Shown: in pieces, positions 464 through 43,563 of the stretch | Position numbering within the stretch: the first letter of the stretch is position 1 | Layout of the letters: every line of letters begins with the position of its first letter | Assembly (NCBI RefSeq): GCF_964275005.1 | Contig: NW_027307649.1 | Location: forward strand, 566,001-630,000 | Length of the DNA stretch: 64,000 nt | Direction: 5' to 3' | Source: Diadema setosum | Lineage: Eukaryota; Echinodermata; Echinoidea; Diadematoida; Diadematidae | Notes under the pieces: model-generated | Database searches by the model: none | Told to the model about the DNA's origin: nothing | What the model saw: only the letters and a program-made list of their open reading frames with translations | Program-made: the position numbers and the translations under genes

Positions 464-3400
464 GTATCACCTTGGTTTCCAGTGGCTACGGATGTTCAGA
501 GGGGCTGCTAATGGGGATCTCCATTTGGGCGTGGGACGAACAACAGGATTTGCTCTTTTTTCCTACTATAAACTTTTTCGAGTTTATCAGGCTGCAGAAC
601 ACGTAAGTTTGTATCACCTGCTGCTCTATGAGTACATCGCATGTGGCAGTTGATCAAACAGTATGAGCTTTGCTAACATCGAGTTAGAGTTAGTTAAAGT
701 AGAGAAAGTCTGGCTGCGGGCTGCATGCCGTAATATTTCGCCGACTATGACATTTCACTTCCGAAAGATGATATCAGAAATCACTGTAATTACTTTATAG
801 TAATCAGGTGCAAAAACTACAGAATGACAATGCGACGAATTAAAGTGACGAAAACACAAGCGAAGGGATAATTGGAATATCATTGTAGTGATGGATGGCA
901 ATAGGATAGAATCTGGGTACGTTTGTTGATGTAATGCGTAAAATACTTCCCCTGTTCACGTACATGCCTTTATTTTTCATCGAGAAGAAAAAATCCTGTA
1001 TTGATTTCCTCGAGAAATGATAATTGAAACTAAGCTGACATCAATTATATGTTGATTGGCTGATTGAGGCTTCACGATTGCGATGCTTCATTTAGAATTG
1101 AAGAGATGAAAACTGAATGTCTACAGAAGCTTAGATGAGGATTTTAGTTTAGTGGAAAATGACTACGTATGATTGTGTTATGTGCTGTTTTTCTTCTACT
1201 TAAATCAGTCATGAGAGTCAGCCTGAAACGCTGTTCCTCGACGAGCTCGAGATTGGCCAGGAGTACGAGGTCGTCATCACCCAGGCATGTGGACTCTATC
1301 GATACAGACTGGGAGACATCATTCGAGTCACTGGTTTCCATGACAACTGTCCTTCATTTCAGTTCTTGTACCGGTGAGTGCAAATATTTATGTAGCCTTT
1401 GTCACTGTGTGACATGCGCGACGCGTCGCACATTTCAAACCGTCACGACGGTTTGCAAGATCGAAATCTTTTACCTTCAACTGTTTTACCACTTGCACAT
1501 AAAACAGAACGCACTAAACGGTCATCCTATAAACATGATCCATCAAGGCCGTGATTTTCCAGCACGCAGGAGAATTTTCCGTGGGTTGACAAGGATGCTT
1601 GCGAGTTTTGCACTTGTTTCTTACCACTAGACGCGTGCTACTTACCTTCTACTTGCGTGTATTCCGTGTGACCTGCGTGAGAGCTTTGAAACCGATCCGT
1701 TTTCTGTTAGGAGCGACTTATAGATACTGAGAAGTACCTGCGTTGGAGTTGCCGGGGAGGTGCTGCCGGTAAGAGTCTCCTACTGGTGTTCTGCGTGTAC
1801 CTCTGCGAGCGAACTCCCACGACTCACTAGGAACACAGAACAAGTTTTGAGCATGCTCAAAGCCTTTTCACACCGTATCTGGGAAGTTTTGCGGCTTGAC
1901 TTGCGGGGGAAACATATTCATTTGCTACCCGGAGCTCTCCGCACCTGACAGTACCTAGCGCGTATCTTGCTTGTAGTTGCCCGGAGATGCACACGCAAGT
2001 CCGAATTAACCGCAGCCCAGTTTTGAGCATGACCAAACTTTTTCCGGGTGAGTCGCGGGGATGGCGGAGAGGTCCACGCAGAACGCCAGTAGGAGGTCCT
2101 AGCAGCATCACTTCGCAGACAACTCCCACGCATCCACATTGTACTTCGCAGTCCCCGTATGCAGCCAATATAATGACATTCTGTGGGACTTTTGCCTTTC
2201 CTTCAGAGGAATTCCTTCACTGAGTTGTCAGCCCTAACGCACCTGGCACACAGGTCACACAGTATACCCGCAAGTAGATTTAAATAGAACGCGTCCAGCA
2301 AGTAAGACACATGCACCGACTCGCCAAAATCCTTGTCTGCCATCAGAAATTGGCCGGTGTGCTGAAAAATCCCTACACGCAACAAGCCCGCGTAGCTTGC
2401 CCGGAAAGGTGTGACAGGGCCTAAACATGGTTGCCGGTTAAAAGATTTGCGTGCGCACCTCGGGCGACTACGGGTGAGATACGTACCAGGTGCTGTCATC
2501 TGCGGGTCATCTGCGGGGACCTCCGGGTAGTAAAAATTGTTCTTCGCAAGTCGCACGCAAGGCTTGCCCGGAAAGGTGTGACACTGCCTCATGTGCATTC
2601 TCGACACAAGTGGTTACGTGAAAGCTTTGATTTCAGCTTTGCGATATATTTCATGGTTAAATCAAAGTTGTTGATGGAATTGTTTGTCTGCTTGTTTGTT
2701 TTTCTTAGGTTTAATTCAGTGTCTTTTGTGCTAGTGTGAGCTTGTCTGTGATCTTTATCGTGTTTTCATTCAATAGCACATTCTGGCAAATTACAATCGT
2801 ATAAGATGAGTATTGTAAATATGAATTCGGGACATGCTCATGATTACAGTATATAGTGCCGAGAAAATTTGATTATCTGCGACGTACATCTACAGCCAAG
2901 GAACAAATACAGTAGCTTTACCCAGAGCTATGACCGTGATGTACCATTCTCATATCGACTTGACCCTTTCTCTGTTACTTTCACTTTGTGCCATTTTCAG
3001 TCTTGGCCTGATGTTGAATTTACGATACGAGAAGATAGACCAAGGCGTCGCACTCCAGGCAATTCAGGCCGCCGTGAAGCGCTGGCCGAACCGGGTCAAA
3101 CTGACTGAGTTTGCTGCCGCCGAAAGTACCTTGCTTTCAGAAACATGCGCTGGTGAGTATGCAAAGAATACACCAAGTTGCACTAAAACTGATTTATAGG
3201 GATATTGCATGTCCTAATGAGTCGAATCAGTTGGTGATAACTGTAGAATGCTATTGATAAACCATTTAAAAACGAGAGCTGCATTTAAGCGTGGGTCAAG
3301 GCGACTAAACTCTGATTAATGATAAATCATGACTGGATTGTGACGAGTCCTGTATCTAACGCACTGCATGGAAAAAGGCACCTTAATTCAGTTTTCTGCT

Positions 3401-6400
3401 CCTCCCTTTCTGATCCCCTCCCCTCTCCCCTTCTTTCCCCTTATTTCCCCTCCCGGCCCTACTTCCCCTTTCCCACTCCCCATTCCACTCCCCTCTCCCT
3501 TTACCCATCCATTCCCTCTTCTCTCTTTTCTCACCTCCCCTTCTATCCTTCTCTTTCCTTTCTATCATCCTCTCTTTCTTATTCCCTTTCCCTTTCTTAT
3601 CATCTCCCTTTCTTTCCCCTGTCTTTCCCCCTCCACTCTCCTCTCCCTTTCACCTCCTTCCCAACTCCATTTCTCCCTTCCCTTTACCATCTTCATTTAC
3701 CCTGCCTTCCACCTCCCCTTTCCTCACACCCTTTGCCATGGAACCTTTGGAAATACTGGACTTACTGGTTCAGTGACCTTAAATTAACTTAGCAGATGAA
3801 TGATTTTCATCGTGCTTCAAGATTCTTCTGTTGTATATTGCAAAACAAATCGGAGGGGGGGGGGGAGGATCATGCTTGCCTCATAGGTTTATATCCAAGC
3901 TGCTGATCCAGTTCAGTTGAGCATCATTTAGTTTGCCAAGTTCTGTAATGCCTCCTGGAAACTTTTAAGGGTGGCAGTCCTCCACGATATGACGCAGGGT
4001 TTGGTCGGGATGGCGGCATTCACACGTCGGAGAGTTACCTGTTGTTAACTTGGAGGGTTCGCTGATGCGGTGTAGCAGGGTAAGCCACTGTTTCCGAAGA
4101 AGGTTAAACCTTTTGGTTCTGTTGTCGGGTTAGTGTTAGCGTTGCAGCTATACGTTGGATTGGAGACGGCATCAGACCAGCATAAGTTTTGAAGTCGAGG
4201 TTTTCCCGTGACTGAAGGGACATCCACAATAGTTTTAGGGATTTCCAAGATTTCATACGCATTGACGGGAGGTCGTTCAGGTACTGTGGATTACAAGGTC
4301 AGTTTCTAACTGCATTGATGTCACTGGTAAAACTTGCCATCCTTTCCTTCTTGCGTAGGGAGGTGGAATTATATATGCCAAAGGAGATAGCCAGTGAAGG
4401 GTGGGCACTTGAGTGTGCCTAAGACTACCTGTATGAATGAGTTCAGGACCGTCGTATCAACACGTTTCATGTGGCAGCTGTTGACACATGATGATGGGCA
4501 GTACTCCGCAGTCGAGTAGATGATGGTTATGGTAGCAGTAGGCCTATGAGAAGTAGGGTCTACTTGCTTTTCAATTCCAATTGTTGCTTGTGAATTTCGA
4601 GATGATGTAACGCCGTGGTTTCAATCTGTCTGCAACTCTCTTCAGTATGTAAGACTGCGGTCTAACGTACCTCCAAGGCACTATCCTCGTTCTTGACAGG
4701 CATTATACCACCCACATAATTATGAAAAGGAACGGAGCCAACATAGAATCCAGGGGAAGTCCTAACATAGCTCGTCTGGACACCCATACTGATCTTGAAT
4801 CTGCGATTTAATTGCTGACGATTACAGACAAGCAGCGCAAATTTGTCTGGCAATTAAGGATCATGGACATTTTCGCAGAAGCAGACCATGCAAGATCCTT
4901 TTTTTTTTTTTTTGAAGCCTTGTTGGATGCCGGCTTTGATGCTACTGATTATGCCTGTGACTTGGTCAGCACAACTCTTGCCTGGTCTAAAACCTTTCTG
5001 TTCCTTCGGCAGGATGGGCTCGTCCAAAGGAGAGTGATTGACAAGGAGGAGTCGTTCAGAAAGTGGTACACAACGGCGAGATAGGTCTGTAGCTGGCAGG
5101 GTCTTGCTTGGCGTCATGAAGAAGGAAGCGGTCATTGTTAGGCGCCCAATCATCCAGAACTACGCCGTTGTTGTCGTTGGCAGAATAGCCCTGAGAAGAG
5201 TGGTGACCGTTGAAATCTCCTGCGTATACCTCTGGGTGTAAGAAAATTGGCAGCACTGGGACAGGTCATGTGCCCCCCCCCCCCCCCTCCCGTGACGTTG
5301 ATGTCACCAACCCTGACAGATGCGACAAGTACATCAAGAAAGCTAGAATCCTGGGGACAGAAAATCTTCCAGACAATGCCTAAAGTATAGGTAGCAATGT
5401 CATATTTTTCATGGCTAACACACGCAATAAGCTTGAAACCAAGAATGTGTCTGCGATATGCGTCTCTTGGAGGTCGGAGAACATCAACATCAAGATCTTT
5501 GACAGTTCGAGAAATATTGACATTCTTTGTAGAGACATCCTCCACATTCTGCCGGAGGATAATGTAGGGATTTCCTGACATTACGGGTGTGTTGGCCCTG
5601 AGAAGGGCCGCTTGAGTTGATGGTCACAGTCGCCATGGCAAGGGTGACGTAAGAAAGTAAAATCTAAGTTGTATACTTAGTATGCTTTCTACAGAGAAGA
5701 GTACAAAGTTGTATTGCATCGTGTAAGTTGCATCAGCAAACAACAGGGTGGACCACGAGAAGGTTGAAGTCTCCCATTCCGCTTCAAGATGGGATTAATG
5801 GAATGGGAACGATGTCATTTCCTTTTTTTCTTTGTCCATAAGACATTTAGAAAGCGAGCGTCTCTAGGATGTCGTTTGCCGATACAATGCTTTATATTTT
5901 CTGGTTTTTAACTTACTCCTTTTTCCCCTCATCCAGCCTTCGAGAGGAACGAAATTATGCCATACTACTTGCTCTTCGTAGAGTTGGAGTTCACATCTGG
6001 AAATGAGTCATGTGAAGAGATCACACAAGAACACAAGGCACTGGTAAATGTCCGCTTAACGTCTTTCTATTATCGACTTTTGTTCCCCTTTTTATAATCA
6101 AAGTCAAAATTTCGTCAGTCGCACACCATACCCTAACTTAGCACAAGAGTGGAACTTTCCCATTTTATGCAGTGCTCTCCCATTATAACGAACATGGTTA
6201 TAACGAAACTCCGGTTACAATGAAGTGAAAATTCAGGCCGCAAAGTATCTGTGTTGGAGTTGCCTGGGAGGTGCTGCCGGTAGGGGTCTCCTACTGGTGT
6301 TCTGCGTCCACCTCTGCGGGCGAGCCCCCGCAACTCACTCAGAACAAGTGTTAAGCATGCTCAAAGGCTTGTCATCTGTATCTGGGGTAGTTTTGCGGGT

Positions 6401-8120
6401 TGACTTGCTGGGAAACAAATTTGCTACCCGGAGCTCCCCGCAGTTGATAAGCACCTGGCAGTACCTAGGCGCGTATAAATCATCTCGCCCGTAGTTGCCC
6501 GGAGGTGCTCATGCAAGTCCGATATACCCGCAGCCAAGTTTTGAGCATGACCAAATTATTTTTTCCGGGTGATTGCCCGCAGAGGTCCACGCAGAACGCC
6601 AGTAGAAGACCCTAATAGCGGCAGCACCTCGCAGGCAACTCCCACGCAGGTACTTCGCAGTCCCCTTATGCAGCCAAGATAATGACATTCTGTGGGACTT
6701 CTGTCATTCCTACAGAGGAATTCCTTCACTGAGTTGTCAGCCCCCACGCGCCTGGCACGCAGGTCACACAGAATACTGAATACATGCATTCAGTTTTTAC
6801 TTGGTTGTTCATTCATTTGAGGCCGTGTCACTCCTTTCCGGGCAAGCCTTGCGTGCGACTTGCAAAGAACAATTTTTACTACCCAGAAGTCCTCGTAGAT
6901 TAGCCGCACATGACAGTACCTACCACGTATCTCACCCGTAGTCACCAGGAGGTGTGCAGGCAAATCATTTCACCTGCAACCAACCTTAGGCCCTGTCACA
7001 CCTTTCCGGGCAAGCTACGCAGGCTTGTTGCGTGTAGGGATTTTCCAGCATAACGGACAATTTCTGAGGGCGAACAAGGATTTGGGCGAGTCAGTGCATG
7101 TGTCTTACTTGCTGGACGCGTTCTACTTAAATTCTACTTGCGGGTATACAGTGATACCTTTGTACCAGTCGCATGGGGGCTGACAACTCAGTGAAGGAAT
7201 TCCTCTGAAGGAAAGGCAAAAGTACCACGGAATGTTTTTATCTTGGCTGCATTTGGGGACTGCGAAGTGGGCCTGCGTGGGAGTTGCCTGCGAAGTGAAG
7301 CCGCTAAGGGCCTCCTACTGGCGTTCTGCGTGGACCTCTCCGGGCATCCCCGCGACTCACCCGGAAAAAAATTTTGGTCATGCTCAAAAACTTGGCTGAG
7401 CACCTCCGGGCAACTACAGGCGAGATACGCGCTAGGTAATGTCAGGTGCGGTGCGGAGAGCTCCGGGTAGCAAATTTGTTTCCCCGCAAGTCAAACCGCA
7501 AAACTTCCCCGGATACGGTATGACAAGGCCTTGAGCATGCGCAAAACTTGTTCCGAGTGAGTCGTGGGGGTTCGTGAGGTACTCGTCGCAGAACACCAGT
7601 AGGAGACCCTTGCCGGCAGCACCTCGCAGGCAACTCCAACGCAAGTACTTCTCAGTACCCATAAGTCGCTCGTAACAGAAAACGGATTGGTTTCAAAGCT
7701 CTCACGCAAGTCACACTGAATACACGCAAGTAGGTAAGAAACAAGTGCGAAACTTGCAAACATTCTTGTTCGCCCTCGGAAAATCTTCTGCGTGCTGGAA
7801 ACTACCTCCTCGCCACAAGTCCGCGTAGCTTGCCCGGAAACGTGTGACACGGCCTTTACAGTTTTATTGGTTTATTCATGTACTGTTTCTTTTACCATCA
7901 GCTCGATCGGGAACTGCGTGACCGCAATAGCGACTACGACCGGCTGCGCCGGGAAGGTGCCATTGCGCCCCCTCGAGTTCACATCGTGAAACCTGGAGCG
8001 TTCGAGGCACTGAAGGCTCACATTCTGGCCAACACCAGCACAACCGCTAACCAGTACAAAGTACCGCGCAAATTGCGGACCGAAAGCCTGGTCGAGTTTT
8101 TACTTCATCAAGTCATGTAA
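464..8120 (+). CDS. GHDC-like: GH3-domain protein (GHDC-like), copy A, 3' part only
   Basis: Five coding exons: 464-602, 1209-1373, 3001-3152, 5937-6043 and 7902-8120 (TAA stop). All have AG/GT borders and phases that join into one reading frame of about 260 residues. The first exon completes a split Gly codon, so at least two 5' exons lie left of the window, as copies B and C confirm. The protein has GH3 motif II (SSGYGCSEG in exon 464-602) and motif III (YRYRLGDIIRVTGF in exon 1209-1373), which in plant GH3 acyl-acid amido synthetases bind the ATP/AMP. The C-terminal lobe includes NLRYEKIDQG and PRVHIVKPGAFEALK; the latter resembles the C-terminus of vertebrate GHDC. Introns 4, 5 and 6 hold transposon relics. 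Family assignment is firm; substrate and reaction in animals are unknown. Confidence 0.88.
1546..2589. mobile_element. Foldback/MITE element, copy 1 (intron 4 of copy A)
   Basis: The two halves are imperfect reverse complements. For example, the block CTCCTACTGGTGTTCTGCGT near 1778 reappears inverted near 2075. The right end reads GGAAAGGTGTGACACTGCCT; the left end starts AGGCCGTG but is truncated. An internal terminal-like motif (GGAAAGGTGTGACAGGGCCT) occurs near 2404-2423, so the element may be a composite. No transposase ORF is present, and short ORFs inside it are chance. It is related to the elements at 6235-6812 and 6820-7855. Confidence 0.65.
3395..3735 (+). repeat. Pyrimidine-rich (CT) tract in copy A intron 5
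   Basis: About 340 bp of almost pure C/T sequence on the + strand. It gives a spurious Pro/Ser/Leu-rich ORF. A shorter homologous tract sits in intron 5 of copy C (41125-41300). Such tracts can form triplex DNA; no function is claimed. Confidence 0.85.
3860..5640 (-). mobile_element. Jockey/CR1-like LINE relic in copy A intron 5
   Basis: Minus-strand conceptual fragments, in order from 5640 down, match a non-LTR retrotransposon. First come endonuclease (APE) pieces including AGDFNGHHSSQGYSAND. Next is a reverse-transcriptase start with EQKGFRPGKSCADQV. Last is a terminal zinc-knuckle-like region (QTLRHIVEDCHP then LNWISSLDI, near 3890-4020). The frame is broken repeatedly by stops, frameshifts and poly-T/poly-C runs. 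It is collinear with the relic at 19880-21910 in copy B, so one insertion probably predates the A/B duplication. Confidence 0.8.
6170..6236. mobile_element. 5' fragment of TA-flanked MITE (copy A intron 6)
   Basis: CAGTGCTCTCCCATTATAAC followed by repeated TATAACGAA-type motifs matches the left half of the complete element at 22255-22431 in copy B, at the same distance (about 125 bp) after exon 6. It is interrupted at about 6236 by foldback sequence, so this is a nested insertion. Confidence 0.65.
6235..6812. mobile_element. Foldback/MITE element, copy 2, partial
   Basis: Starts within a TA-flanked MITE and repeats the blocks GTTGGAGTTGCCTGGGAGGT and CTCCTACTGGTGTTCTGCGT. Their inverted counterparts lie near 6580-6650. 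Typical terminal repeats are missing, so the element is truncated. Host intron sequence resumes at about 6779. Confidence 0.6.
6820..7855. mobile_element. Foldback/MITE element, copy 3, complete
   Basis: A 1036-bp element with matching ends: AGGCCGTGTCACTCCTTTCC on the left and the inverted form GGAAACGTGTGACACGGCCT on the right. The arms are long imperfect inverted repeats. Copy B carries the empty site (ATTCATTTACAGTTTTATTG at 23391-23410), which dates the insertion after the A/B duplication. It ends 46 bp before the acceptor of the last exon of copy A. No transposase is encoded. Confidence 0.75.
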
Positions 8121-10015: not shown

Positions 10016-10102
10016 CATTTATTTTTATTTTTATTTTTTATTTTTTGAGGGGGGGGGGGGTTCATCAGCTGACCCCCCCCCCCCCAAAAAAAAAAAAAAA
10101 AC
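10016..10102. repeat. T/G run facing C/A run, homopolymer hairpin
   Basis: A T-rich stretch and about ten G are followed by a short spacer (TTCATCAGCTGA), then about thirteen C and a long A run. The two halves are complementary and could form a strong stem. Run lengths in such tracts are prone to sequencing error. Confidence 0.7.
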
Positions 10103-10455: not shown

Positions 10456-10458
<3 letters not shown>

Positions 10459-10491
<33 letters not shown>

Positions 10492-10536
10492 TGTGTGTGT
10501 GTGTGTGTGTAAGTGTGTGTGTGTAAGTGTGTGTGT
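10459..10536 (+). repeat. (TG)n microsatellite upstream of copy B
   Basis: An interrupted GT/TG array about 180 bp before the exon 1 ATG. The equivalent array precedes copy C (30182-30234), and B/C similarity starts at about this point. Confidence 0.95.
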
Positions 10537-10539
10537 TCT

Positions 10540-10711
10540 TGTCTGGCTTATTTGAAAGAGTTTGCTTCATGATCGTCATGTGTCACTGCGCTGTGAAATT
10601 GCTGTTTATGCTGATTTGTGTTTCTCCAACCCCATGAACAGAGACGCCATACCTTAAATGCAATTATTGATGCTCATATCGTCTGACTTGCACACTGCTG
10701 AAAGATCGGCT
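10540..10711 (+). promoter_or_regulatory. Conserved 5' flank / 5' UTR of copy B
   Basis: Sequence from the (TG)n array to the ATG is nearly the same as 30240-30412 before copy C (for example GAGTTTGCTTCATGATC and TGCTGATTTGTGTTTCTCCA). No clear TATA box is seen. The stretch probably includes the 5' UTR and core promoter; this is inference from position and paralog conservation. Confidence 0.4.
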
Positions 10712-13700
10712 ATGAATATGGCGCTCCTGAATCTTCACACGAAGTTGTCGCTGTTGTCGACAATCTTTCTGGTCGTGTCGCTGCTGCTTGCCCAGGCGAC
10801 TGGTCTGGCGGAATCTGGGAGAATAGCGTACATGAGTTTCGGTGAGCTTTAAAGTAGTACAATAATAAGCTGGTCATTAATCTCCGCGGAATGCGAAACC
10901 ATTTAGTTGCAGAGAATAAATCACATTAATAATGATCGAAATCAACAACTAAGCTTCTATAATTGTCTTTCTTAGTGTCACGTTGAAGTTCAGGTGATAT
11001 CTTTTTTTTTTTCACGTAGCCATGGTCTTAAATAAACCTATCTCCCGGCCTCCCCCGGTGAAGATCAGGACGACTATGTTCGCAAATGTACCGAAGATAT
11101 TTATTTTCTATTAGAAATTCAGAATGTTTATTGGCCCTACGTGTAACGCTGTTGACAAGAAACATGGAGGGCCTACTGACATACTTAATGACTGTTAAAA
11201 CTATCACATAATTCAGTCGGTAGAAATCTTATCGTGAAAACAGCGTGATATTAAGGAATTTGCAGTGTTTGGAATTGCACGATGTAAAGATTTTAATTTT
11301 CCTCCACCTTTTTCTTTGTCATGATGTAAAGAATGCAAAGATTTTCCTCTATATTTTTTGTACGATCACGATGAATGCAACTGCTTGCTTACACAAAATT
11401 CTTAGAAACTGGAGCCTACCGATAATCAACTTTTATAGTGAAACAGTTCAGTTTTTATCAACGGCCAATCGTGTATGCAGTCGTATTATAATTGATACGG
11501 TCGAGTTTGTTCTCTCACAATACTTACACCTGTTCATAGGTAGGCACGCATCGGCTTGACAGAAAATTGTCCATAAGCTTTGGTCCGCATGAGTCTGTTT
11601 GGTGTCTCACCAGTATTGCTGAATTCTAATGAAGAGGCCATGATCTCATTCCACACACACATAACCACCACCACCACCACAACAACAACACACACCACCA
11701 CACACAATCACTCCTAAGCAACTAAAAGGTATCAATATTATAAAGGAGAAGTCCAGGCGATTTTCATAATTTCACATCATGTAGTACATTATAAATTGAC
11801 AGCTACACACTCTATAGATTTGTGGAATTTATTGTGGTCCTAAATCGGAGAAACTTATACTCTGGAAAATTCAATACAAGTTGCACTAAACAAAGATGAT
11901 GACATAGGAGATTCACATATTTTATCATCCTTGTTCATTGTAATTTGTTTTAGAATTGTGAAAACATTCATATTCCTCGTTCCAATCACGGTAAATTCTT
12001 AGACTCTGTACCGGGTGTCACGACTTTATTGTTGTAGGTCTAAACGTAAAAGTCTGAAAATCATCCTGAGTTCTCTCTTAATGTAATCAATGAGACTATG
12101 TAAACATAGACTGCTTTAAAAGGGCCTATACCACATCATCCACCGCGGAGAATGCACTTTTTTTCCCGTAAGACCCCCGCTTCATAGAGATTTCTTTTCT
12201 TATTTGTCATTCGTCGTGAACGAAGTTTGTTGCTTCCGGCCACCCACCGAAGTGAATGGGATCGCAGTCTAATGAATCCGACTTGATTGGTCCACTATCA
12301 GGTGAGTGTCAGATATATCGCTCGTGTTCCTTATCGGATCACGCTCGAAATGTCTGACACTGACCTGATAGTCGATCCAAGCTAGCTGATCCACTGGACT
12401 GCGATTCGATACACTTCGATAAGTGGCCGGCAGCGATGAATTAGCTTCCGATGAGTGACCGATGAGAGAAAATCTCTGTGGAATGAGCGTGCACCGTATT
12501 CAGAATGATACATCCTCCAGCAGTGTAATTATACCAGGGAGCCACGGCATGCTTTTGTCTCTGTTTAGCTTTGCTTTGTAAGTCTCAATGGCAAAGCCCG
12601 GCTCTGATGTTCTCTACCCGCTGAAAGGTTTACATTTTACAGAAACACAAAACATTCACAACAAAGTTCAAAAGTGAATAAACAACAGAGAGGAAAAAAT
12701 TATGATAGAACCTGAAGTTCTATTTCATTGTTTGCGTTGTAACAAAGAGCATTATCTACACACACATGTTATACACACACATACAATAAATGATAATCAT
12801 GACTCACGAATGGCGATACCGAAAGAAGAGGAACCCAGCAAACACAGAACGTTTTCAAAACGTTTCCTAAACGTTTGTTGGAGCAAGTTTGAGGTTCCAT
12901 ACGTCTTCGTATAAATGGACGCTTTTAAAACGTACATACAACGTCAAATTGGGGACTTAGCATTTACTGCAAAGCACAGGTTTTTGGAGAACGTTTTAGA
13001 AACGTCAATGGACGTTACAATACGTTGTTATTATCTCTGCAATGTCTTCATCCTTTGTAAACGTCCACAAAACGTTTTTATTAGGTCTGCTACGTCGACT
13101 TCGTTTTTAATGAACGTTTAAAAAAACGTATTTATTTCGTCCTCTGTCCGTCTCTTTATTATGAATATAACTCATGCATGATTATGAATATTCAAATTAA
13201 GGTGTGTGTGATATAATTTTAGTAACCATGTCTTCATGCATCACAATATTTTGGTGGTATATAAAAGAATGTGATACAGATTCATCAATGGTAACGGGCT
13301 GACCCTATGTCAGAGAGAGGAGTTCAGCACCCTCCACCCCCCTAGCTGTCTGTCTTCTCGTTCTGTCTTCACCCTTTCCGCTATTCTTCTATCAACACTT
13401 CTCTTCCACGATGTCTCTGCCTACCAGGCTAATAATAATTAACACCTAGGCCGATAAGACAACTAGAGGCGCCTGACCCCGGGAAAGGCCAAGACATCAC
13501 CGGCGTCGGCGGGCGGGTCCTATACCTGCTTTGCCGACGGGAACGGCGCGGCGTAACCCTGCATTTCTCTCGATGCAGGAGTAGGCAGATGACATCATTT
13601 CCGGAACCCTGTCCCCTTTCCTTCCGATGTATATATAAATATCATTGTAAATATAAAAATAAATGTTATTGGGTTTTTTGTAAATAATTAAAAGTATTTT

Positions 13701-18184: not shown

Positions 18185-18219
<35 letters not shown>

Positions 18220-25400: not shown

Positions 25401-25496
25401 GACTGAAAAAAAAATTAAAAAAATAAAAATAAATAAATAAATAAATGAATAAATAAATAGATAAATAAGAGCTGGTGCTCATAGGCAAGCCAGGCA

Positions 25497-27234: not shown

Positions 27235-27261
27235 ATTCCTACTTCTCTGCTATCTGCCCTG

Positions 27262-28089: not shown

Positions 28090-28271
28090 AGTCTTCCGGA
28101 CAACTACAACTACACCTTGAAGAGACTGTATAGCTTAGAGAGCCAGTTCAGAGACAGGCCTGAGGAGTGGGATGTGTACTGCAAGCAGATGAGGAATCTG
28201 CAGCACAGAGGTGTCTTACGTCGTGTCAGTGACGCAGAAATTTGACAAGACAGAGAAGCTGAAAGAAACAT

Positions 28272-29026: not shown

Positions 29027-29039
29027 TCTTCATTGTGCG

Positions 29040-30181: not shown

Positions 30182-30182
30182 G

Positions 30183-30224
<42 letters not shown>

Positions 30225-30234
30225 TGTGTGTATG
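30182..30234 (+). repeat. (TG)n microsatellite upstream of copy C
   Basis: Counterpart of 10459-10536. Similarity between the B and C 5' flanks starts here. Confidence 0.95.
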
Positions 30235-30239
30235 TTCTT

Positions 30240-30412
30240 GTCTGCCTTATCTGAAAGAGTTTGCTTCATGATCATCATGTGTCACTGCGCCGCGAAATTG
30301 ATGTTCATGCTGATTTGTGTTTCTCCAAGCCCATGAACAGAGACGTCATACCTTAATTGCAGTTATTGATGTTCATATCGTCTGACTTACTGTTGAAAGA
30401 TCGGCTTTGAAT
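30240..30412 (+). promoter_or_regulatory. Conserved 5' flank / 5' UTR of copy C
   Basis: Closely matches 10540-10711. The upstream-most ATG of copy B is TTG here, which shifts the likely start 6 bases downstream. The BEL/Pao 3' LTR ends about 180 bp before the TG array and about 400 bp before the ATG. Confidence 0.4.
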
Positions 30413-32903: not shown

Positions 32904-32979
<76 letters not shown>

Positions 32980-35900
32980 TGATAATCATAAACTGTAATG
33001 CAAGGGCCGCGAAACCGAAAGAAGAGGGAAGGCCTGGGCTGCAGCTCAGAGGGTTCTACCAAGGAGGTACTAGGCGAGCCTAGTACCTCCTTGGTTCCAC
33101 CACTTCCGAGGTTTCTGATATAGTCGTATTCTCTCTAGGGTTCTACCACAGATTCATCCTATCTTTTTGTTTTTGTTTCTCTCTCTCTCTCTCTCTCTCT
33201 CTTTTGTTTGACTCTTTGTTAATCTCCCCCCCCCCCATCCTCTCTTTTTCTTTCCAGCGCTCATTGCTCTTGTTTCTACCTGTCTCTCTTTGATATTTTT
33301 GATTCTCCTCGCTCTTGGCCCTGCGCCAAATGATGGGGTGAAGTCCACTCTACGTTGCTTAGTGTCGTCCATGGTGGCGCTCTTGCGAGGGAAGATTGCC
33401 CTCTATCGTCTGGAGAAGCACTGGAAGAATCCTCGCCGAGCCCAGGATCGCCTCCTCAGACACATTCTCCGTGAGAATGGTGGCACAGAGTACGGCAGAC
33501 GATATCAACTTCGAGACATCAAGGACAGAGAAGAGTTTAGGGCTCGCCATCCATTCACAACATACGAGCATTACCGTCCTTATGTTGAACGGGAGATGAA
33601 TGGCGAAAGAAACGTTATGACCCGGAAGTTTCATTCCAGTTACGTCAGAACTTCCGGTACGACTGGTCGTGGCAAGATGATCCCTCAGACAAATAGACTC
33701 AAAATAATGATAGACTATCTCGATCTTCTTTACGCCATCGTTCGAATGAAATTCCCTCATATGGGTATATTTCAAAAGCAACTTTTTGTCTACATAGCCC
33801 CTGTAGTTTCTAGAACTAAATATGGCGGGGTCGTCGAGAGTGTCCTGGCTATAGGAGATGACACAAGGCTGTATTACACCACACCTCCGGCTGGTTTTCG
33901 CATCCATTCCTACGAGGTTGGGAATTACATCCATCTCCTTTTTGCCCTGCGTGATAGGAATCTCGGCTCTATCTGCGTCATCTTTTTGAGCACGCTCGAG
34001 AGCATGATGAAACAACTCGCACAGTGGTGGGAAGACATCGTCTTCGACATCGAGTACGGAACCATCAGTGAGCGACTCGAACTCTCAGACGACATACGGT
34101 CAGCACTGACAGCTGACCTTCGTGGCGGCGACCGGCAGAGGGCGCTGGAATTACGGCAAAATTTTGTAGTTGGACTAGACAACATTTTGGCAAGGGTCTG
34201 GCCGAGCCTCAGAGTCATCATATCCGCGGACAGCACTGGAATCTGGCCCAAAATAAGAGAGAAATATGCAAGAGGTGCCGTGCTTCTTTCCTAACATGAC
34301 TTTTCCTAATGATTCGCTAGCTATTGGTCACTTATTTGATATCTCCAAAGACTACCGCATGTGTATGTTAATCGTTTGTCAGTCCATCCAACCGGTCATT
34401 CTAAATAATATCGTTGTCACGACTAAAGGGAAACTAAACTTGTTCAGTAGTTTGTTAATTACTAATGTCTGGCCGAGCATGATTTGTCGGTTGTATTTTT
34501 ATGCACTATCTAAATTTCGGGCCAAATTCCCTGGCCAAAGTCTTCAAGGCAGGTTGAAGATCTTGAATGAAATGTTTTGCCATGCGGTGACGGTGAACAG
34601 GGGCTATATTTATTTTGATGTATTAACTTTTATCACATGACAGGTCACTATTTAAGCTCAAAACTCAAGGAATAAACGATTAATATCAATTGCCTGAAAA
34701 GACAGGGGAAAAATTGACGGTCAAAGATCACGGATGATCTAATAAAATTGTCATTGCCGGCCACAACTTCTACTATGAAAGAATATCTAATAACGTGAAA
34801 ACATGACGTCATTGGTAAAAGTGAGGCGGAAAATATTGGAATGTGTGCAGGGAGCTTTAAACATCAGTCCTCGAGATCGACGGTCAAGATCAATGAACTT
34901 CATTAAAACGTAGGCCCACATGAACAGTCATGCACATTAATGATGATATCAGGAAGTGGCTGGAAAAGAAATCGAAAGGATTAAAACTTCACGGTCGACC
35001 TTGCGTTGAAATCGATGTCGATTGAAGTCGATCAAGTTGGCATTGTAGGCCGGTAGAAAAAAAAATGTTCTATCGAATGCTTTGAAATAATCATCGTTCT
35101 ATTAGCTGATGTCCTTTGCCACAAGAAAATTTTATTCTTAAAAAAAAAGATGCGAAGGTAATGTGCAAAATTTAAGAATAATTCGTCAACGGTATCTCAG
35201 GGTGTTAACACTTTGTGCATGGATATAAGCAATGGGTAGGATATTTTGTTTAATATCCAAAAGCATAATTATCACATATTTCACTGTTACTTTTGCATTA
35301 ATAGCCTGAAATCCACTTTAACTACCGCCAGATATTACTTTGGTTTCCAGTGGATATGGAAGCTCAGAGGCGATTCTCATGGGAATCTCCATTTGGGCGT
35401 GGGACGAGCGACCGGATATGCTCTTTACTCCTGCCACAAACTTCTTCGAGTTCATCAAACTGCAGAACACGTACGTACTTTGTATCACTTGTTGTTCCGT
35501 GAACACAGTGCAGGTGGTAATAGATCAGACGGTATGAGCTTGGTTACAGCTAAAGTAAAAGTAGAGAAAGTTTGTTTGCGAACAGCTGTAATGTTTTGCA
35601 GTGTATGATAATTCACTTCCGGAAAAAAAAAAATCAATTCTTTGGAATGGCGGTATAGTAGGTGATGAGTGCAGTACCCAAGATAAAACAGAAAGACAAT
35701 GCGACGAATTAAGTGGAGAGCCCCTAAACACAACACAACATACAAACACACACGCAAACACATACACACGTACACACACAAACGCACATACACAAACGGC
35801 AGGATAGATGATATCCACGTTTTAATAGTCATAACAATCTGAATATTCGTCCTTTTTAGTTCGAGACGGCTCTCACTGATCTCTTGCAAAAAAAAAAAAA

Positions 35901-36740
35901 AAAAAGACACGAGAAAAGAAAAAAAAGTTTTGTCAGTTCATCTGTCAATTTCTCTTTGGACCACAGAATGGCAGACTGCCCACAGTTCATGAAGACACAC
36001 CTAAACAACTTCTCCTGCCATTGCCTGCAACCAAATTCCTCTACTTTTCAATGAAACTCTGAAAATTATGCAACACGCAATAAAAACACAGAACTGAAAC
36101 CAAAACGACACATTTATTTCATTGATTGGTTGATAAACAGCTGATAAAGGTTATACAGACTTCTGGCGATTATTTCAAATTGACAAGTTGATAAACAAAA
36201 TGTGTATAGAGATACAGATGAAGCCTTCTTGTTTTCTTTTGTTTTTAAGTAATGATTCCGTGTCATCGTTTGTGATTATGTTGTTACTGATTTTTTTTTT
36301 TCTGCTTAACTCAGTCATGAGAGTCAGCCTGAAACGCTGTTCATGGACGAGCTGGAGATTGGCCAGGAGTACGAAATTGTGATCACCCAGGATTGCGGGC
36401 TTTATCGGTACAGATTGGGAGACATCATTCGAGTCACTGGTTTCCATGACAACTGTCCTTCATTTCAGTTCTTGTACCGGTCAGTGGAAACTATGATTTA
36501 TCACTTTTGTAACTGTGTGACTAGTGTAAATATCTGCGAGATAGAAATCTCTCGCACTAGAGTTTATCAGATTAATGGTCGTCAGTTGCTTTTCCTCGTG
36601 CACATTAACGCAGCCTATATGTCTTTAGACCTACATTACCTTTCATGATTTCTTTGATCGGTATGAGCAATTTAAGCAGAAGCTTTAAATTCAATACTTA
36701 CTTGTTTTGTTATTTCATGGTGATACCTAAGTTGTTGTCG

Positions 36741-36793
<53 letters not shown>

Positions 36794-39700
36794 GCTGCTA
36801 CTGCTGCTGCTTTTTCTTGGGGTACATTTTAATTCAGTGGTCTTTGTACTACTGAGTTTCTCTTTATGATCTTAATCAACAATATGCTCTGCTCAAAATA
36901 GCATTCTAACAAAGTATGACCATAATAGTGATTTATCAATATGAGTAAGGGAATTGGTTAGTTACTGCATGTATCCTACCGCCAAAACGCACAGCGCCGT
37001 TGTAAAGCCATATCATAGATGCACAGTGGGATGATAACTCGGTAAGAGACCGCGTTTACAGTGATTGAAAAGGCCGGCCTCGGCCCGGGCCGAACCCGGC
37101 CTTCCTTTCACTGTAAACGCGCAAAAGGCCAAATGCGGTAAAACGGCCGCGCATTTGGCCAAGCTCTGGAGGTAGTCTCGGCCCGGGCTCGGCCTGGCCT
37201 TTTCTCACTGTAAACGCAAACTGGGCCAAATACGGTATGTTAAATTGCGACCGGCGCGCTCCCAATAATGATCGTTTGTTTCAGAGCCTTTGTTTACAAG
37301 CAGAGCGCCACTGCGACAAAATATTGAAAGGTTTGAATGAAAAGCCCGGGCCGAGCCCTCCACTGTAAACGGACAGAATTGCGGGGCCGAGTAACATAAT
37401 TGAGGCCGGCCTTGCAGAGACTATACCTCGTCTTTTGTCTTTTTTTTTAACCATATGCCGAATGGTTTTTGATGGTTTTACCTATCTATCCCTTGAGGGT
37501 TTTAAGATATTCAAGATTGCCGCCAAGAATTGAAAATATAACCCATATGTTTTGTTCCAAATGGTGAGAAGTGAAAAGGTCTTAACCTGTTTCGAGATTG
37601 CTGAACTGGAATCTGGATGAGACAACGTTTGCATTCCTGGGGGTTATGAGATACCTAAAATGGCCACCAAAAGTGGAAATTCCAATAGAAGTAGGCCTAT
37701 TACAGTCCATAGAAATGGTGACAAAATTGGAAAAAAAAAGTGGTGGCTTTTTCCTCCTTCGTAGATCCTTAATCCGAATCTGATTGATGCAACTCTAGCA
37801 CCCTTGAGGGTAGTTGAAATATTTAAGATGCTTACCAACACGGCCATTAAAAATCATGAATACCTTAAAACCCTGAACGTCGGATTCCCAAGTCTCATCA
37901 ACCAGCCTCGGATTCAGTGCCTTGGAAATTGGGTAAACTCATCAATTTCCTTTCAATGTATTCACCATAAATTCACAAGGAGATGCCTATGTAGGTATCG
38001 TACTATTTTAGCGGCCATATCAAATCCTCAATGATGCGAGAGTTGCATCAACCACATTCAGATTGAACAACCGGGGGAAGAGGGTCAAATCCAATTTATT
38101 TTCAATTTTCCACCATCTAAGGAAAAACAATTGTTTCAAATTTTCAACTTTGGCTTCTATTTTGAATATCTCAAGGCCCTCAGTGTCAGGGGTGCAAGAG
38201 TTGCTTCATCAAGGTTCAGCTCCAGTACTCTCGAAATAGGGTGAAACCATCATTTTTTTCCCTAATAATATAGGAAAATAAGGCCTATACATGGGAATTC
38301 ATCCATCTTGATTATATTTCAAATTCCTCAAGTCGAGTCGCATCATCCAGGTTTGGATTTAGCCCCCTTGAAATAGACCTAGGTTAAAATAATTTCTTTC
38401 TTTTCGATTTTTTTCCCACCATTTATAAGGAAATCTTTTGAATATCAGATTTTGAGTATATCAAAACCTTCAAGGAAGCAACAGCTGCATGACCCAGATT
38501 ACAATTCAGCACAGGTCTTCGATGTAGGGTAACACCATTGGTTAACTTTTAGGAGGACTGTGAAACAAGGTTAGGCCCAAAACCTGACTTAGGCATCCAG
38601 ACTGGTCTACAATGTCCGGTTATCTTCGTCCCCATGCAATGCAGTGCAATCAATGTGTGCATTTTGTTCATTTTTGCTCTTATCCTCGATTTGAATTTGG
38701 CGTTAAAAGAGTTCACAGGTTTTCATTTTGACTGATTTGAGGCTAATTAAAGTCGTGGGTCGTCACTGCGATGCTGCAATACGCTGGTCAGAAGATGATA
38801 AGCAAAATAACAACAACAGCAGCAGCAGCAACAACAACAACAAAATACCACTTGATGAAAGACGTTATCCTGGTTGGTCGGTGGAGTAGTGCTTTTTCTT
38901 TTCCTACCCATCTGATCTCGATCACACGTAATATTCAAAGGCTGCTCGCGCCCTGGTCTGAACAGGGAGGTGAGACAAAATAAGCCTGTGTCAAGCTTAC
39001 GAACAAAAAGCCTACCCACAGTAAATGAACACACTTGTGGTACCCTTCACCATTTTACTGCAGCGGTTCTTAGTTTGCCATTAACCCACCGGCAAGGTTC
39101 GGTGCTGAAAGGCCTGGTTTTGTTTTGTTTTGTTTTGTTTTGTTTGTTTGTTTGTTTGGTTGGTTGGTTGGTTGGTTGGTTTTTGTTTTGTTTTTTACTG
39201 AGCAAGCGAATGATTTGCGAGGACGCTAAATGTCGAAAAAAAATGGCAAAGTCCAACATTCGGAAAAGATTTTCTCCGAATGTGTTTCCCACAACGGAGC
39301 CGAAAACCATTCTTGATTGCAAACTTTGTGCGTAGTTCTTCCGACCTATGTATGAGAATGTCGACTCTATACCATTGCTAAACTACGGCCAGTAACAAAC
39401 ACGAAGGACAGGCGGATGCGAACAACACAAATATTCCAATAATCACAGGAAAAAGAAAATGTTTCCTAAGAGGGTTGACAGCTGCCTCGAGTTGAAGTCA
39501 AATTTGTTCTCTTTCCCTTTTGATTATTCTCTCTCTTGTTTGTTGGTTTGTGCATGCACGCACGCCCGGTTGTGTGTGTGTGTGTGTTTGCGCACGCGCA
39601 CGTGTGTGCCGACTTCTTTTCCGAGGACCTACCCGCACAAGCATGTTCACTTAACTCTAGATTCCCCCTTCACACATTTTCAAAATAATAGATATAGGGC

Positions 39701-42700
39701 CTAGCGTACTTTCAAAGATTTCATTTTCTATACGGGTTTTTAAATTTCTTATCGTTCAATATGTAGATATTAGTCCCTATGTTGCAATTGGATGTGTAGG
39801 AAATCTAGTACAGTATACGAAATGAAAAGCAAATTATTATAAAGGCTGACACCCCGGTCTTGCCTTTTATAGAGATCAGACGTCACGTGGTGCATATCTA
39901 TATTCTAGATTATATAGATTTATTGAATTGGACATTCCCATCACCACTTGTTCCTCTGTATTAAACTTTCACTTTCTGCAATTTTCAGGCTGGGCCTGAT
40001 GTTGAATTTGCGATACGAGAAGATAAACCAAGGCGTCGCACTCCAGGCATTTCAGGCCGCCGTGGAGCGCTGGCCGGGCCGGGTCAAACTGACTGAGTTT
40101 GCTGCCGCCGAGAGTACCTTGCTTTCAGACACATGCACTGGTGAGTAGAATACACCGTGTTGCACCAAAATGATTTACAAGGGTTCCACATATCCTAACG
40201 GTCGAACCAATCGTGATAATCGTGTATGGAATGCCATAACTATGAAAAAAAAAACTAAATTGTATGGAATGCAAAAACAAAAAAACAACAACTAAAGTTT
40301 GATCAGTTTAAATTGAAAAAAAATACTGACAGCTATGTTTAGGCGACTGATAAGATTGTTATCTTCTAATTGATGACATAATATTCTGTACAATGAATGC
40401 CGTATCTAACTGAGTGCAAGGAAGGAAAGAGCAGAATCCCCCTGCTTCTGCTTTGAACAGTACCATCTCTCTTTTGCCAAGGCGTTGCTTAAAGGACAAG
40501 TTCACCTTCATAAACATAAGGATTGAGAGAATGCAGCAATATTAGTATAACACATCAGTGAAATTTTGAGGGAAATTGGACAATCGATGCAAAAGTTATG
40601 AATTTTTAAAATTTTTGTGTTGGAACCGCTTGATGAGGAGACTACTACAGTTTGTGAGTCATATGCGTACAACAGTATAAAGAAAATGTAAAGAAAATTC
40701 AGCATATTTTCACTTTTTCCGCACAATAAAAGAGCACTTGACTTGCCTCTTCCTAAAGGCAGGGGGAATAATATTACCCATAACATTTGTCGGTAACGAG
40801 TCGGGGGAATATGTACTTTTTTCAAAACATGACATTTTGTGAAATTCTCTTTATATTTTCCTTTATTGTTGTACGCATGTGACATCTAAGTTATTCACAG
40901 ACTGCAGTAGTCTTCTCATCCAGCGGTTACTGCACAAAAACTTCAAAAATTCATAACTTTTGAACGGATTGTCTGATTTTCCACAAACTTTCAATGATGT
41001 GTTCTACTAATATTGCTACATTCTCTCAATCCTTATGTTTATGAAGGTGAACTTGTCCTTTAATACACCTACCCATTGTGTTACTACTCCGCATCGGAGA
41101 GTCCTCTCTTAGGCCCCTCCCTACATTATGTAGATGACTCCCCCTACTCTCTTTTCCCCGTCCCTTTCCCCTTGTCTTCCCTCTCCAGTCATCTCTCCCT
41201 TTCCCCTCCCATCTCCCTCCCCCTCCCCTCATGTTCTCCTCCTTCCCCTCATTTTCTCCTCCCTCTATCTCATCTTCCCTTCCCGCTCATGCGCCCTTCG
41301 CCATACACAGTGCCTTTCCGTTATAACGAGCACGGTTATTACGAAAGTCCCGTAACTTAGTAAAAATTCAAGCCCCAATATTATCCGCTATATGGTCTTT
41401 TTTACTGTTTATTTATTCGGTTTTGACGAAATTTCGATATAACGAAAGTAAACTGTCGGTCCTAGGATTTTGCTATAACGGGAGTAGACTGAATAGGGCC
41501 TACAAGACATTTGTTTTTCCTTTTTTTGCGAACAATAATGAAGTCCCCTTCTTTACTTTTGAACCATTAACAGTAACCTATGAAGCCCAAATATTTACAT
41601 GGATTTGGTCACTAAAGAAATATCAGTAGAACGCATCAGTGAAGTTTGAGGAAAATCGGACAATCCCTTCAAAAAAAAATTCAAGGGTTTTTAGAATTTC
41701 GGCACCGCCATCGTAGGATAAGAAGACGGCAACTTTCTGATGTCGCAGTAGGGCGACAATGACAACAATCGTCCGATTTTCCTCAAACTGAAATGATGTG
41801 TTCTTCTGATAGTTCTGCATTCACTCAAGGCATATATAGTCGGGTTTCATTCCCTTTTGACACGTTAATATTTTTTTCTGACCACCATGAGTAAGCTGGG
41901 CTTTATGAAGTTGGTACGATGTCATTTATACCCTACTCATTTTTGTGAGTCGTCCACGGGACACTTGCGTGACTCTGTCATTTGCTTATAATCCTCTATT
42001 AGATGAGTCCCTCGTTTAAATATGATTTTCTGGTTTTTGACTTGCTTTCCTCTGATCCAGCCTTTGAGAAGGACGAAATTATGCCATACTACTTGCTCTT
42101 TGTGGAGTTGGATTTCCCATTTGGAAACGAGTCGTGTGAAGAGATCACGCAAGAACACAAAGCACTGGTAAATGTCCTCCTAACGGCTTTTCTATATCGA
42201 CTTTTCCTCCTTTCTTTTAATATTTAACAAGTAGCACCAGAAATATTGTTTGCGCCCCCCCCCCCCCTTTACGGAATTCCTGGATCCGCCCCTGCCCACG
42301 GTAATCGATAGTCATTTCTGCATAGCCTTTAAATGTTTTCTTTGTATCCCAAATAGTTTATTGTAATGTTTCTCATGGAATATCCACGACTAGCAAAAAC
42401 CCATGTGGACCGCTAACGTTGTTTACTGAAAGAAGACATGACATAGTTCAAATCAACATGGCCACAAACATCCAATTTTTCAAATACATTGGTGCACATC
42501 AGCTCTATGCCATTTTCATAGGCTATCCCGAGGTCACACTTTACACAATACTGAATGGAATTAGAGAAATATAACAATAATAATGACTCATACACTATCA
42601 TGACTCGTGTTTACTGAATTTTACTGTTTCTTCTTCAGCCTTACATGTAATCTTACTGCATTCTTCTATATTCTACATGTACATTATATTTTTGCAATTA

Positions 42701-43563
42701 AGTCATCCAAAGCTCTACCACATGTGGTCTAGCTATTGCACAAAATATCTATCTCGCTGCTTACCGTGTAAGATACATTAGATGCAATCTGGTATTCAAA
42801 TGTTTGTATTCGTGCAACCTGAATACCATTTTGAATAATCTCTAGTCACTTCCCTACTTTCACTCAACAACTTCAAACCCTCTCTGAACCCTTCAATTCC
42901 GTTCACGTATAATATGGAAGAGTCAGAATAACATGGGCTAATTTTCTACCATTAATTTTTGTATTTCTGTGCAGCGCTTCACATTATCATTAAGAATAAA
43001 ATAAAATAGATAAATTAACTGTCTCTAGCAACAATGTAGTTCCACCATTATCCCTGGTTCCAAAGAGTGAATCATCTTTGATATAATGATTTATTCATCA
43101 ATCAGTTAATCAATCTACCAATGAATCAATCTATCGATTGGATAATCAATCAGTTGATTGCCTATGACTGTCCGACATTTATTGCTTGGTCCGTAAATAT
43201 AATGAGTACATTTGTCATGTTTATTCCTTAACAATGTTTGTTTACTTCACTGTTTCGCACTCATTAAGTCATCCATCAGTTCATTGGTTTATCTACACTG
43301 TATTTGCCGTTTCATCTTTGACTCGATGTGCTTTTTACCGACAGCTCGATCAGGAGCTGCGTGACCGCAATAGCGACTACGACCGGCTGCGCCGGGAAGG
43401 TGCCATTGCGCCCCCTCGAGTTCACATCGTGAAACCGGGAGCGTTCGAGGCGTTGAAGGGCCATATTTTGGCCAACACCAGCACCTCTGCTAACCAGTAC
43501 AAAGTACCGCGCAAACTACAGTCAGAAAGCCTGGTTGAGTTTTTACTTCATGAAATCATGTGA
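30413..43563 (+). CDS. GHDC-like: GH3-domain protein (GHDC-like), copy C, complete
   Basis: Exons: 30413-30536, 33258-34274, 35332-35470, 36315-36479, 39989-40140, 42061-42167 and 43345-43563 (TGA). They give 640 residues. The first ATG of copy B is TTG here (30407), so translation should start at the next ATG, 30413. The N-terminus has the same two hydrophobic segments as copy B. GH3 motifs are TSGTTGRGKMIP, SSGYGSSEA and YRYRLGDIIRVTGF. Odd points: the exon 2/exon 3 junction codon is Asp (split G|AT) where A and B have Gly, just before motif II; the exon 2 donor GTGCCG is weak; exon 5 has EKINQG where A and B have EKIDQG. No stop or frameshift is seen, so it looks functional. Downstream, AATAAA near 43612 is a plausible poly(A) signal. 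Confidence 0.89.
31936..32271. mobile_element. Hairpin MITE, first of a tandem pair (copy C intron 1)
   Basis: An inverted repeat like that at 12175-12490: CGGATCACAGTCTGATGAAT on the left and TAGACTGCGATCCGATATAA on the right, with ATGTCAGACATGTCGG/GACATGTCTGACACTCACCT nearer the centre. It is in the same intron position as in copy B. Confidence 0.7.
32272..32581. mobile_element. Hairpin MITE, second of a tandem pair (copy C intron 1)
   Basis: Directly abuts the first element and repeats its arms: TTGTGTTGGTCGACTATCAC on the left pairs with GTGACTGACCTGATAGTCGACC on the right, and CATCAGACTGCGATCC closes the right arm. Absent from copy B. Confidence 0.7.
32909..32976 (+). repeat. (AC)n(AT)n compound microsatellite
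   Basis: About 40 bp of AC repeats followed by about 28 bp of AT repeats in copy C intron 1. Confidence 0.95.
34640..35140. other. Copy C intron 2 sequence without recognised repeats
   Basis: AT-rich non-coding sequence. Repeated short words such as GACGGTCAA occur, but nothing assignable. Confidence 0.45.
36731..36812 (+). repeat. (GTT)n microsatellite in copy C intron 4
   Basis: An almost pure TTG/GTT array that reads as poly-Leu in one frame. It lies about 250 bp after exon 4. Confidence 0.95.
37035..37425. mobile_element. GC-rich inverted-repeat MITE (copy C intron 4)
   Basis: Contrasts with its AT-rich surroundings. Repeated palindromic motifs CACTGTAAACGC and GCGTTTACAGTG, plus GGCCGGCCTCGGCCCGGGCC, occur in both orientations, and AGGCCGGCCT appears at both ends (about 37070 and 37403). 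No ORF. Confidence 0.6.
37860..38560. repeat. Degenerate ~150-bp tandem repeat (copy C intron 4)
   Basis: Four to five diverged units, each with a TATTTTGAATATCTCAAGGC-like start, a GCAAGAGTTGCTTCATCAAG-like middle, a CGAAATAGGGTGAAACCATC-like end and then a T-rich run. The period is near 150 bp. No equivalent is seen in introns 4 of copies A or B. Confidence 0.55.
39112..39200 (+). repeat. TTTTG/TTTG/GGTT simple repeat
   Basis: GTTTT, GTTT and GGTT arrays in copy C intron 4, low complexity. Confidence 0.9.
40489..41063. mobile_element. TTAA-flanked MITE (copy C intron 5)
   Basis: 575 bp with long near-perfect terminal inverted repeats. The left end TTAAAGGACAAGTTCACCTT is mirrored by AAGGTGAACTTGTCCTTTAA on the right, and the match continues for about 45 bp. 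TTAA lies at both ends. The inner arms also pair. No transposase. TTAA targets fit a piggyBac-type mobiliser, but this is inference. Confidence 0.8.
41125..41300 (+). repeat. Pyrimidine-rich tract in copy C intron 5
   Basis: C/T-rich run homologous in position and flank to 3395-3735 in copy A. The TTAA MITE inserted just upstream of it. Confidence 0.75.
41305..41495. mobile_element. TA-flanked MITE (copy C intron 5)
   Basis: Starts TACACAGTGCCTTTCCGTTA and ends ATAACGGGAGTAGACTGAAT. Same family as 22255-22431 but in intron 5 and not intron 6, so it is an independent insertion. Confidence 0.65.
41610..41830. mobile_element. Decayed inverted-repeat MITE (copy C intron 5)
   Basis: GAAGTTTGAGGAAAATCGGA on the left is complementary to TCCGATTTTCCTCAAACTGA on the right, with flanking ACGCATCAGTG / GATGTGTTCTTCTGATA. 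Ends are degraded. The inner arms resemble those of the TTAA MITE at 40489. Confidence 0.6.

Follow-up and report, generated by a model that had tools for sequence, protein, structure and literature searches.

In plant GH3 proteins, adenylation of an acid is followed by its transfer to an amino acid, during which the C-terminal domain of the enzyme rotates (PMC11253546). In bacteria, the GH3-like lyso-ornithine lipid synthetase OlsH couples fatty acids to ornithine using adenosine triphosphate (ATP) (PMC12493201). Here we describe three GH3 genes from an animal, the echinoid Diadema setosum. The genes, named A, B and C, lie in a stretch of 64,000 nucleotides (contig NW_027307649.1, positions 566,001 to 630,000 of the forward strand), which is called the window below and is numbered from its first letter. 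We lean toward the view that A, B and C belong to an animal branch of GH3 that has undergone expansion, and that they encode membrane-tethered, cytosol-facing, ATP-dependent acyl-acid amido synthetases that differ in their acid preference. The enzymatic activity, substrate class, topology and biological role that we propose for the three copies are predictions made from sequence.

Membership in the GH3 family, which the original prediction had read from short motifs, is confirmed by profile and structure searches. A hidden Markov model search with PF03321, proposed at that time as a check, gives E values of 6.5e-62 for A, 1.6e-56 for B and 1.3e-58 for C. In the same three copies, which are those covered by the three-domain scan, PF03321, PF23571 and PF23572 all score above their curated cut-offs. 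The best PDB match of copy C is a plant GH3 (E 2.4e-49), with an alignment that extends over residues 15-556 of the 561-amino-acid model. In addition, the NQYKVPR sequence near the C-terminus of C is identical to the NQYKVPR of the plant chains 7dk8 (rice) and 4b2g.

Motif scanning and gene models agree with the earlier statement that motifs I, II and III are intact in copies B (TSGTSGCAK, YGCSE and GLYRYRLGD) and C (TSGTTGRGK, YGSSE and GLYRYRLGD). Copy A had been credited with motifs II and III, which it carries, and an intact motif I (TSGTTGRSK) is also present immediately outside the region originally read, upstream of the window. The motif III sequence GLYRYRLGD is identical to that of the plant enzyme JAR1, and no activity was seen for a motif I mutant, S115A, of OlsH (both PMC12493201). 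The mutated residue corresponds to the serine of TSGTTG, which is present in A, B and C.

The array is only a small part of the family in this genome, which bears out the suggestion that an active-looking form has been kept and multiplied. At least 29 PF03321 matches are found in the 912.7 Mb of the source genome, and these 29 matches are read as 21 long exons plus 8 pieces of four further genes, yielding 25 loci. Twelve loci are located on contig C20, three each on C13 and on C21 (the contig of the window), two each on C12 and C7, and a single locus on each of C10, C16 and C2. Models were built for every one of the 25, and 23 look uninterrupted. Of the other two, the C2 locus contains one stop, within an exon that matches poorly, and C20_0.18 shows additional breaks and an end that runs on. 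Several models begin without a methionine, having been built with no search for a first exon, and four weaker ones were excluded from the profile for re-modelling.

Residues expected of a working enzyme are widely retained among these loci. Motif I fits T[ST]GT[TS]GxxK, motif II includes [ST]E, motif III fits [YF]R[YF]RxGD and the C-terminal domain carries Q-x-K in each of the 25 modelled loci. The longer lysine motif Q-x-K-x-P, which we take to be catalytic, is present in 24. These counts lean toward family-like exons, as the N-terminal domain served to find the loci and a family profile to re-model them, and two of the 25 models behind them are doubtful.

The named animal relative of these proteins is GHDC (LGP1), an animal GH3 domain-containing protein of the same family that has an N-terminal hydrophobic start and a similar-looking C-terminal end. 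In mammals, GHDC is single-copy, has degenerate motifs and has no known activity, whereas the family described here has 25 loci in which the motifs are kept. With GHDC as the sole named animal relative, one might suppose that A, B and C are likewise structural or regulatory proteins that lack catalysis. However, the motif I lysine, the motif II glutamate, the R-x-G-D of motif III and the C-terminal lysine occur in 25 of 25 loci. Because these loci include members that are only 36-49% identical to copy C, such retention would be unexpected without catalytic constraint, and we regard a purely non-catalytic role as improbable.

The original prediction called the genes plant-type, a term that may fit their chemistry but does not fit their descent. 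The relevant plant enzymes of known structure are OsGH3.8 (7dk8), VvGH3-1 (4b2g), AtGH3.12 (4epm), AtGH3.15 (6avh) and JAR1 (4epl). The likeness to these enzymes includes the three GH3 domains, the [ST]E of motif II, a JAR1-like motif III, the NQYKxPR sequence and an alignment of catalytic length. However, the animal copies are only about 27% identical to the plant enzymes, and their C-terminal domain is longer by about a dozen residues. Motif I also differs, reading TSGTTG-xxK in the animal copies and SSGTSxG-xxK in plants. The extra plant residue (SSGTSxGxxK) corresponds to a gap in the eight animal rows shown in our alignment, and the shorter form is found in all 25 loci. The animal motif I reads like the general motif of adenylate-forming (ANL) enzymes. 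Moreover, copies B and C have two N-terminal hydrophobic segments, whereas in the plant PDB chains the aligned part is preceded by just 11 to 34 residues, which leaves no room for such segments.

Two trees address the descent of the family. The first includes 23 animal rows (all loci except C2 and C20_0.18), three plant chains and two cyanobacterial proteins, and in it a branch with support of 100/99 separates the animal rows from the others. The second adds three more bacterial proteins, taken from among the 9 plasmid records, out of 72,556, that gave a match. The animal clade is kept in this tree (96/98) with plants outside (94/93), and the cyanobacterial rows are sister to the animal clade with weak support (80/79). 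The Streptomyces row has a long branch and joins the Bacteroidota rows, a placement flagged by the program. The identity of copy C is 27-28% with the plant chains and, over about 540 columns, 30-32% with the two cyanobacterial GH3s. Because the animal enzymes form a separate clade and have a motif I that is one residue shorter, and because copy C is slightly closer to the cyanobacterial GH3s, these enzymes appear, within the limits of this small sample, to be GH3 proteins that do not descend from plant GH3. The animal clade is possibly sister to cyanobacterial GH3.

The plant-like reading of the motifs, including a motif III identical to that of JAR1 (PMC12493201), might also suggest that a plant or alga was the source of a recent horizontal transfer and that the acquired gene was then amplified. 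We consider this highly improbable, given that a single deep clade holds the animal copies and lies apart from the plant GH3s of the trees (which contain no algal sequence), that introns are shared within the animal family, and that its members have diverged to 36-49% identity with copy C. An old transfer from bacteria or cyanobacteria could still have occurred.

The two cyanobacterial relatives (L036 and L037) are 2 of 43 pattern matches in one scan. They have a GTTG motif I without the extra plant residue, as well as GASE, GLYRYR[LM]GD and QFKMPR, and they differ from the animal family in being single intronless genes. At L036:1460-2731 and 2905-4659, the cyanobacterial GH3 gene adjoins a gene that by eye resembles one for a glycosyltransferase. 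On the Streptomyces plasmid NZ_CP027299.1 (L038:1-4506), a GH3 gene is in a row with genes for an aminotransferase, a zinc-binding dehydrogenase, an F420-dependent oxidoreductase and a member of the fumarylacetoacetate hydrolase family. This row is possibly a small-molecule amidation cluster.

A distinguishing feature of the animal proteins is their N-terminus. In addition to their catalytic exons, B and C have a 124-nucleotide first exon and a hydrophobic leader, which the original prediction does not mention. The methionine of MVALLRGK was first taken as the start codon and was then rejected, because C20_30.84 lacks that methionine and because the frame runs upstream to a splice acceptor. 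Upstream of MVALLRGK, the frame continues into a hydrophobic stretch, and in A, B and C an aligned AG acceptor marks where this stretch starts. Among 11 conserved candidate stretches upstream of B and C that run from an ATG to a donor of the required phase, the chosen first exon (10718-10841 in B and 30413-30536 in C) is the longest and is tied for the best donor score. A similar exon (L030:4461-4583), 90% identical to the first exon of B, is located upstream of C20_22.59. Weaker matches (E 0.14-0.37), each starting with ATG, occur at consistent positions upstream of three clade II genes, and in these sequences, read by eye, the length of 124 nucleotides and the phase agree with those of B and C. 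In total, the first exon is seen in 6 of 25 loci, with an upstream sequence that reached only about 1 kb for most other copies.

With the first exon included, the complete B and C proteins each have 640 residues and carry two hydrophobic segments, which span roughly residues 6-31 and 36-65. The best 19-residue hydropathy means of these segments are 2.05 and 2.78 in B and 1.98 and 2.88 in C, and nothing exceeds 1.3 past residue 110 in either protein. Among the 25 loci, the in-frame region before the catalytic block reaches a hydropathy of at least 1.6 in all except C20_11.367, a count of 24 in which this region may take in intron where the acceptor is not fixed. The segments of B and C are long enough to span a membrane and probably serve as a membrane anchor, either as a hairpin or as a signal anchor. 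Basic residues follow the second segment, suggesting that the catalytic domain is on the cytosolic side.

These characteristics can be combined into a proposed mechanism. The enzyme would bind ATP-Mg and a carboxylic acid to yield an acyl-adenosine monophosphate (acyl-AMP). The C-terminal domain would then swing, and the acyl group would pass to the amine of an amino acid without the use of coenzyme A (CoA). The animal copies keep the motif residues for both half-steps. The N-terminal anchor would hold the enzyme at the membrane with its catalytic domain in the cytosol, and such an anchor would favor lipophilic, membrane-partitioned acids such as fatty acids, oxylipins and lipophilic dietary acids. 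In biological terms, these acids might be signals made by the animal itself, lipids or toxins from the diet. Long-chain acyl-CoA synthetases are likewise anchored at their N-termini. The approximately 25 copies probably differ mainly by the acid that each would take.

OlsH provides a functional model for this mechanism, as it has GH3 motifs and uses ATP to N-acylate an amino acid with fatty acids. However, OlsH is predicted to be soluble (PMC12493201), and copy C, the copy that was scored, reaches 65 bits on the OlsH NCBIfam model NF052613, far under the equivalog cut-off of 620. The joining of fatty acids to ornithine by OlsH (PMC12493201) is also a precedent for a different activity, wherein acids are adenylated but the acceptor is not a proteinogenic amino acid. 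Taurine, a polyamine, ornithine, a lipid amine or a thiol might serve instead, in which case only the first half-reaction would resemble that of GH3 enzymes. The membrane anchor suits lipid substrates, the OlsH model does match copy C despite the low score, and the acceptor site is not readable from sequence. Nevertheless, the GH3 C-terminal domain and the Q-x-K sequence are kept as in the plant enzymes that conjugate amino acids, and thus we view other acceptors as unlikely but worthy of consideration. Amino acid conjugation by a membrane-tethered amido synthetase is the activity that we favor.

The loci fall into clades labelled I-VI in this analysis. Recent copies are under purifying selection, with ratios of nonsynonymous to synonymous substitution rates (dN/dS) of 0.12-0.30. 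For the 15 pairs of clade I, which consists of A, B, C and three C20 copies, the values are 0.20-0.30; other recent pairs give 0.12-0.23. Amino acid replacements are enriched just past motif I, both in clade I (28 of 48 sites versus 157 of 513, p 0.0002) and in clade II (19 of 48 sites versus 102 of 513, p 0.003). The interval tested, residues 103-150, was set by the expected place of the acid pocket, and a second interval, 101-140, was picked after this result had been seen. The dN/dS of clade I is 0.42 after motif I and 0.16-0.28 elsewhere. Residues named as binding jasmonate in JAR1 (PMC12493201) fall in the stretch past motif I, as judged by a hand count from this motif and not by structural alignment.

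Several observations dampen our enthusiasm for A, B and C as amido synthetases with diversified acid preferences. The motif I serine is replaced by threonine in 10 of the 25 loci, which comprise clades II and III and three of the four members of clade IV. A structure model for the second exon of C, based on an alignment with the B exon and two cyanobacterial proteins, has a predicted local distance difference test (pLDDT) score of 41.8 and is uninformative. An identity of about 27% to plant enzymes would not fix the substrate or the acceptor, and the predicted membrane topology is derived from hydropathy. Furthermore, the 101-140 stretch of clade I is also raised in dS (0.645 versus 0.25-0.45), and clade IVb has no excess of replacements in this stretch (dN/dS 0.06). 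For these last two reasons, we do not claim positive selection past motif I. The excess of replacements may in part reflect older divergence or less gene conversion, and is not clean positive selection.

A related observation is that both dN and dS at residues 101-140 are above those of the rest of the protein in B, C and their clade I and II relatives. Gene conversion may have homogenised the other parts while sparing this one.

The predicted layout of three head-to-tail paralogs on the + strand is supported by motif scanning, gene modelling and Pfam matches, which reveal three complete copies. The array had been placed at 464-43563. The right boundary is exactly the stop codon of C, but position 464 is the start of the second catalytic exon of A, a gene that begins farther upstream. 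Because the window begins inside gene A, the large catalytic exon of this copy, with its motif I, is outside the window at coordinates -1448 to -545. The downstream part of A (1-8120, + strand) has coding exons at 464-602, 1209-1373, 3001-3152, 5937-6043 and 7902-8120. Its catalytic model, which was built without a first exon as none was seen, is 561 amino acids long and free of stops; the catalytic model of C has the same length.

Copy B spans 10718-23662 on the + strand. Its first coding exon (10718-10841) carries the start codon and hydrophobic segment 1 and ends in phase 1. Exon 2 (14588-15604) codes for hydrophobic segment 2, the N-terminal GH3 domain and motif I, and is followed by exon 3 with motif II (16264-16402), exon 4 with motif III (18289-18453), exon 5 with the hinge and C-terminal domain (19458-19609), exon 6 (22019-22125), and exon 7 with the lysine motif NQYKAPR and the stop codon (23444-23662). 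Copy C spans 30413-43563, also on the + strand. Its first coding exon (30413-30536; start codon and hydrophobic segment 1) is followed by exon 2 with hydrophobic segment 2, the N-terminal GH3 domain and motif I (33258-34274), exon 3 with motif II (35332-35470), exon 4 with motif III (36315-36479), exon 5 (39989-40140), exon 6 (42061-42167), and exon 7 with the lysine motif NQYKVPR and the stop codon (43345-43563).

The catalytic part of each copy is composed of six exons whose lengths are common to all three (904 or 901, 139, 165, 152, 107 and 219 nucleotides), and all of its introns are GT-AG. A home-made spliced aligner with B as the query recovered the exon boundaries of C identically. An additional exon, suspected from a blastn match between 1028-1112 and 17746-17831, was rejected as unneeded because the flanking exons join in frame. 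The regions upstream of B (10483-12785) and C (30182-32933) align for over 2 kb at about 69-75%, and therefore the duplication unit contains the first exon and probably the promoter.

Long open frames are present on the + strand between B and C (27235-29026). The portion at 28460-29026 matches the Pao retrotransposon peptidase family PF05380, and that at 27235-28089 matches no Pfam family. Downstream of the array are an (AAACA)n tandem array at 45242-45349 (21.6 copies, 99% matches) and, on the minus strand at 49406-64000, a divergent dynein heavy chain gene. Matches to Dynein_C, Dynein_heavy or AAA_9 are found in five of the eight frames tested in the dynein region, one of them below its cut-off, and for one frame the PDB matches, which are to axonemal chains, are all weak (best E 1.2e-7). 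The Pao-type peptidase and the dynein heavy chain exons fit an animal host, as had been supposed.

The array is located on a contig of 1.2 Mb and its clade I relatives are on C20, an arrangement that could hint at an assembly artefact, such as haplotypes falsely duplicated on an unplaced contig, or at contamination. However, dS is 0.26-0.37 among A, B and C and 0.20-0.37 between these copies and their C20 counterparts, and aligned blocks of A, B, C and the C20 copies, exons and introns together, are about 79-84% identical. These values indicate that the copies are too diverged to be alleles. Spliceosomal introns are present in all copies, similar loci are found on seven contigs of 35-49 Mb, and the Pao-type element and dynein exons mark the window as animal DNA. 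Thus, we give almost no credence to an artefactual or contaminant origin.

Animals were already known to have GH3-domain proteins, and a GH3 domain is named in a table excerpted from one coral genome paper (PMC6214176). Among the matches listed in our literature search on animal GH3 and GHDC, which subscription papers mostly lay outside, there is no account of an expanded, motif-intact, membrane-anchored animal GH3 family. We know of no animal route to acyl-amino acids, among bile acid and glycine conjugation via acyl-CoA and the PM20D1 route, that employs a GH3-type single enzyme. We offer, as a tentative idea that is somewhat more doubtful than not, that some animals own a multigene system of membrane-tethered, CoA-independent, ATP-dependent acyl-amino-acid synthetases. 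Such a system would have been duplicated and diversified in its acid pocket, and would be a counterpart of plant hormone conjugation that acts on membrane-partitioned oxylipins, fatty acids or dietary acids.

The existence of a 25-locus animal GH3 family with catalytic-type residues makes GH3-type single-enzyme conjugation in animals directly testable, and the duplicates form a natural series for the study of acid specificity. If the motifs of mammalian GHDC are indeed degenerate, then this protein may be the decayed relic of an active animal enzyme.

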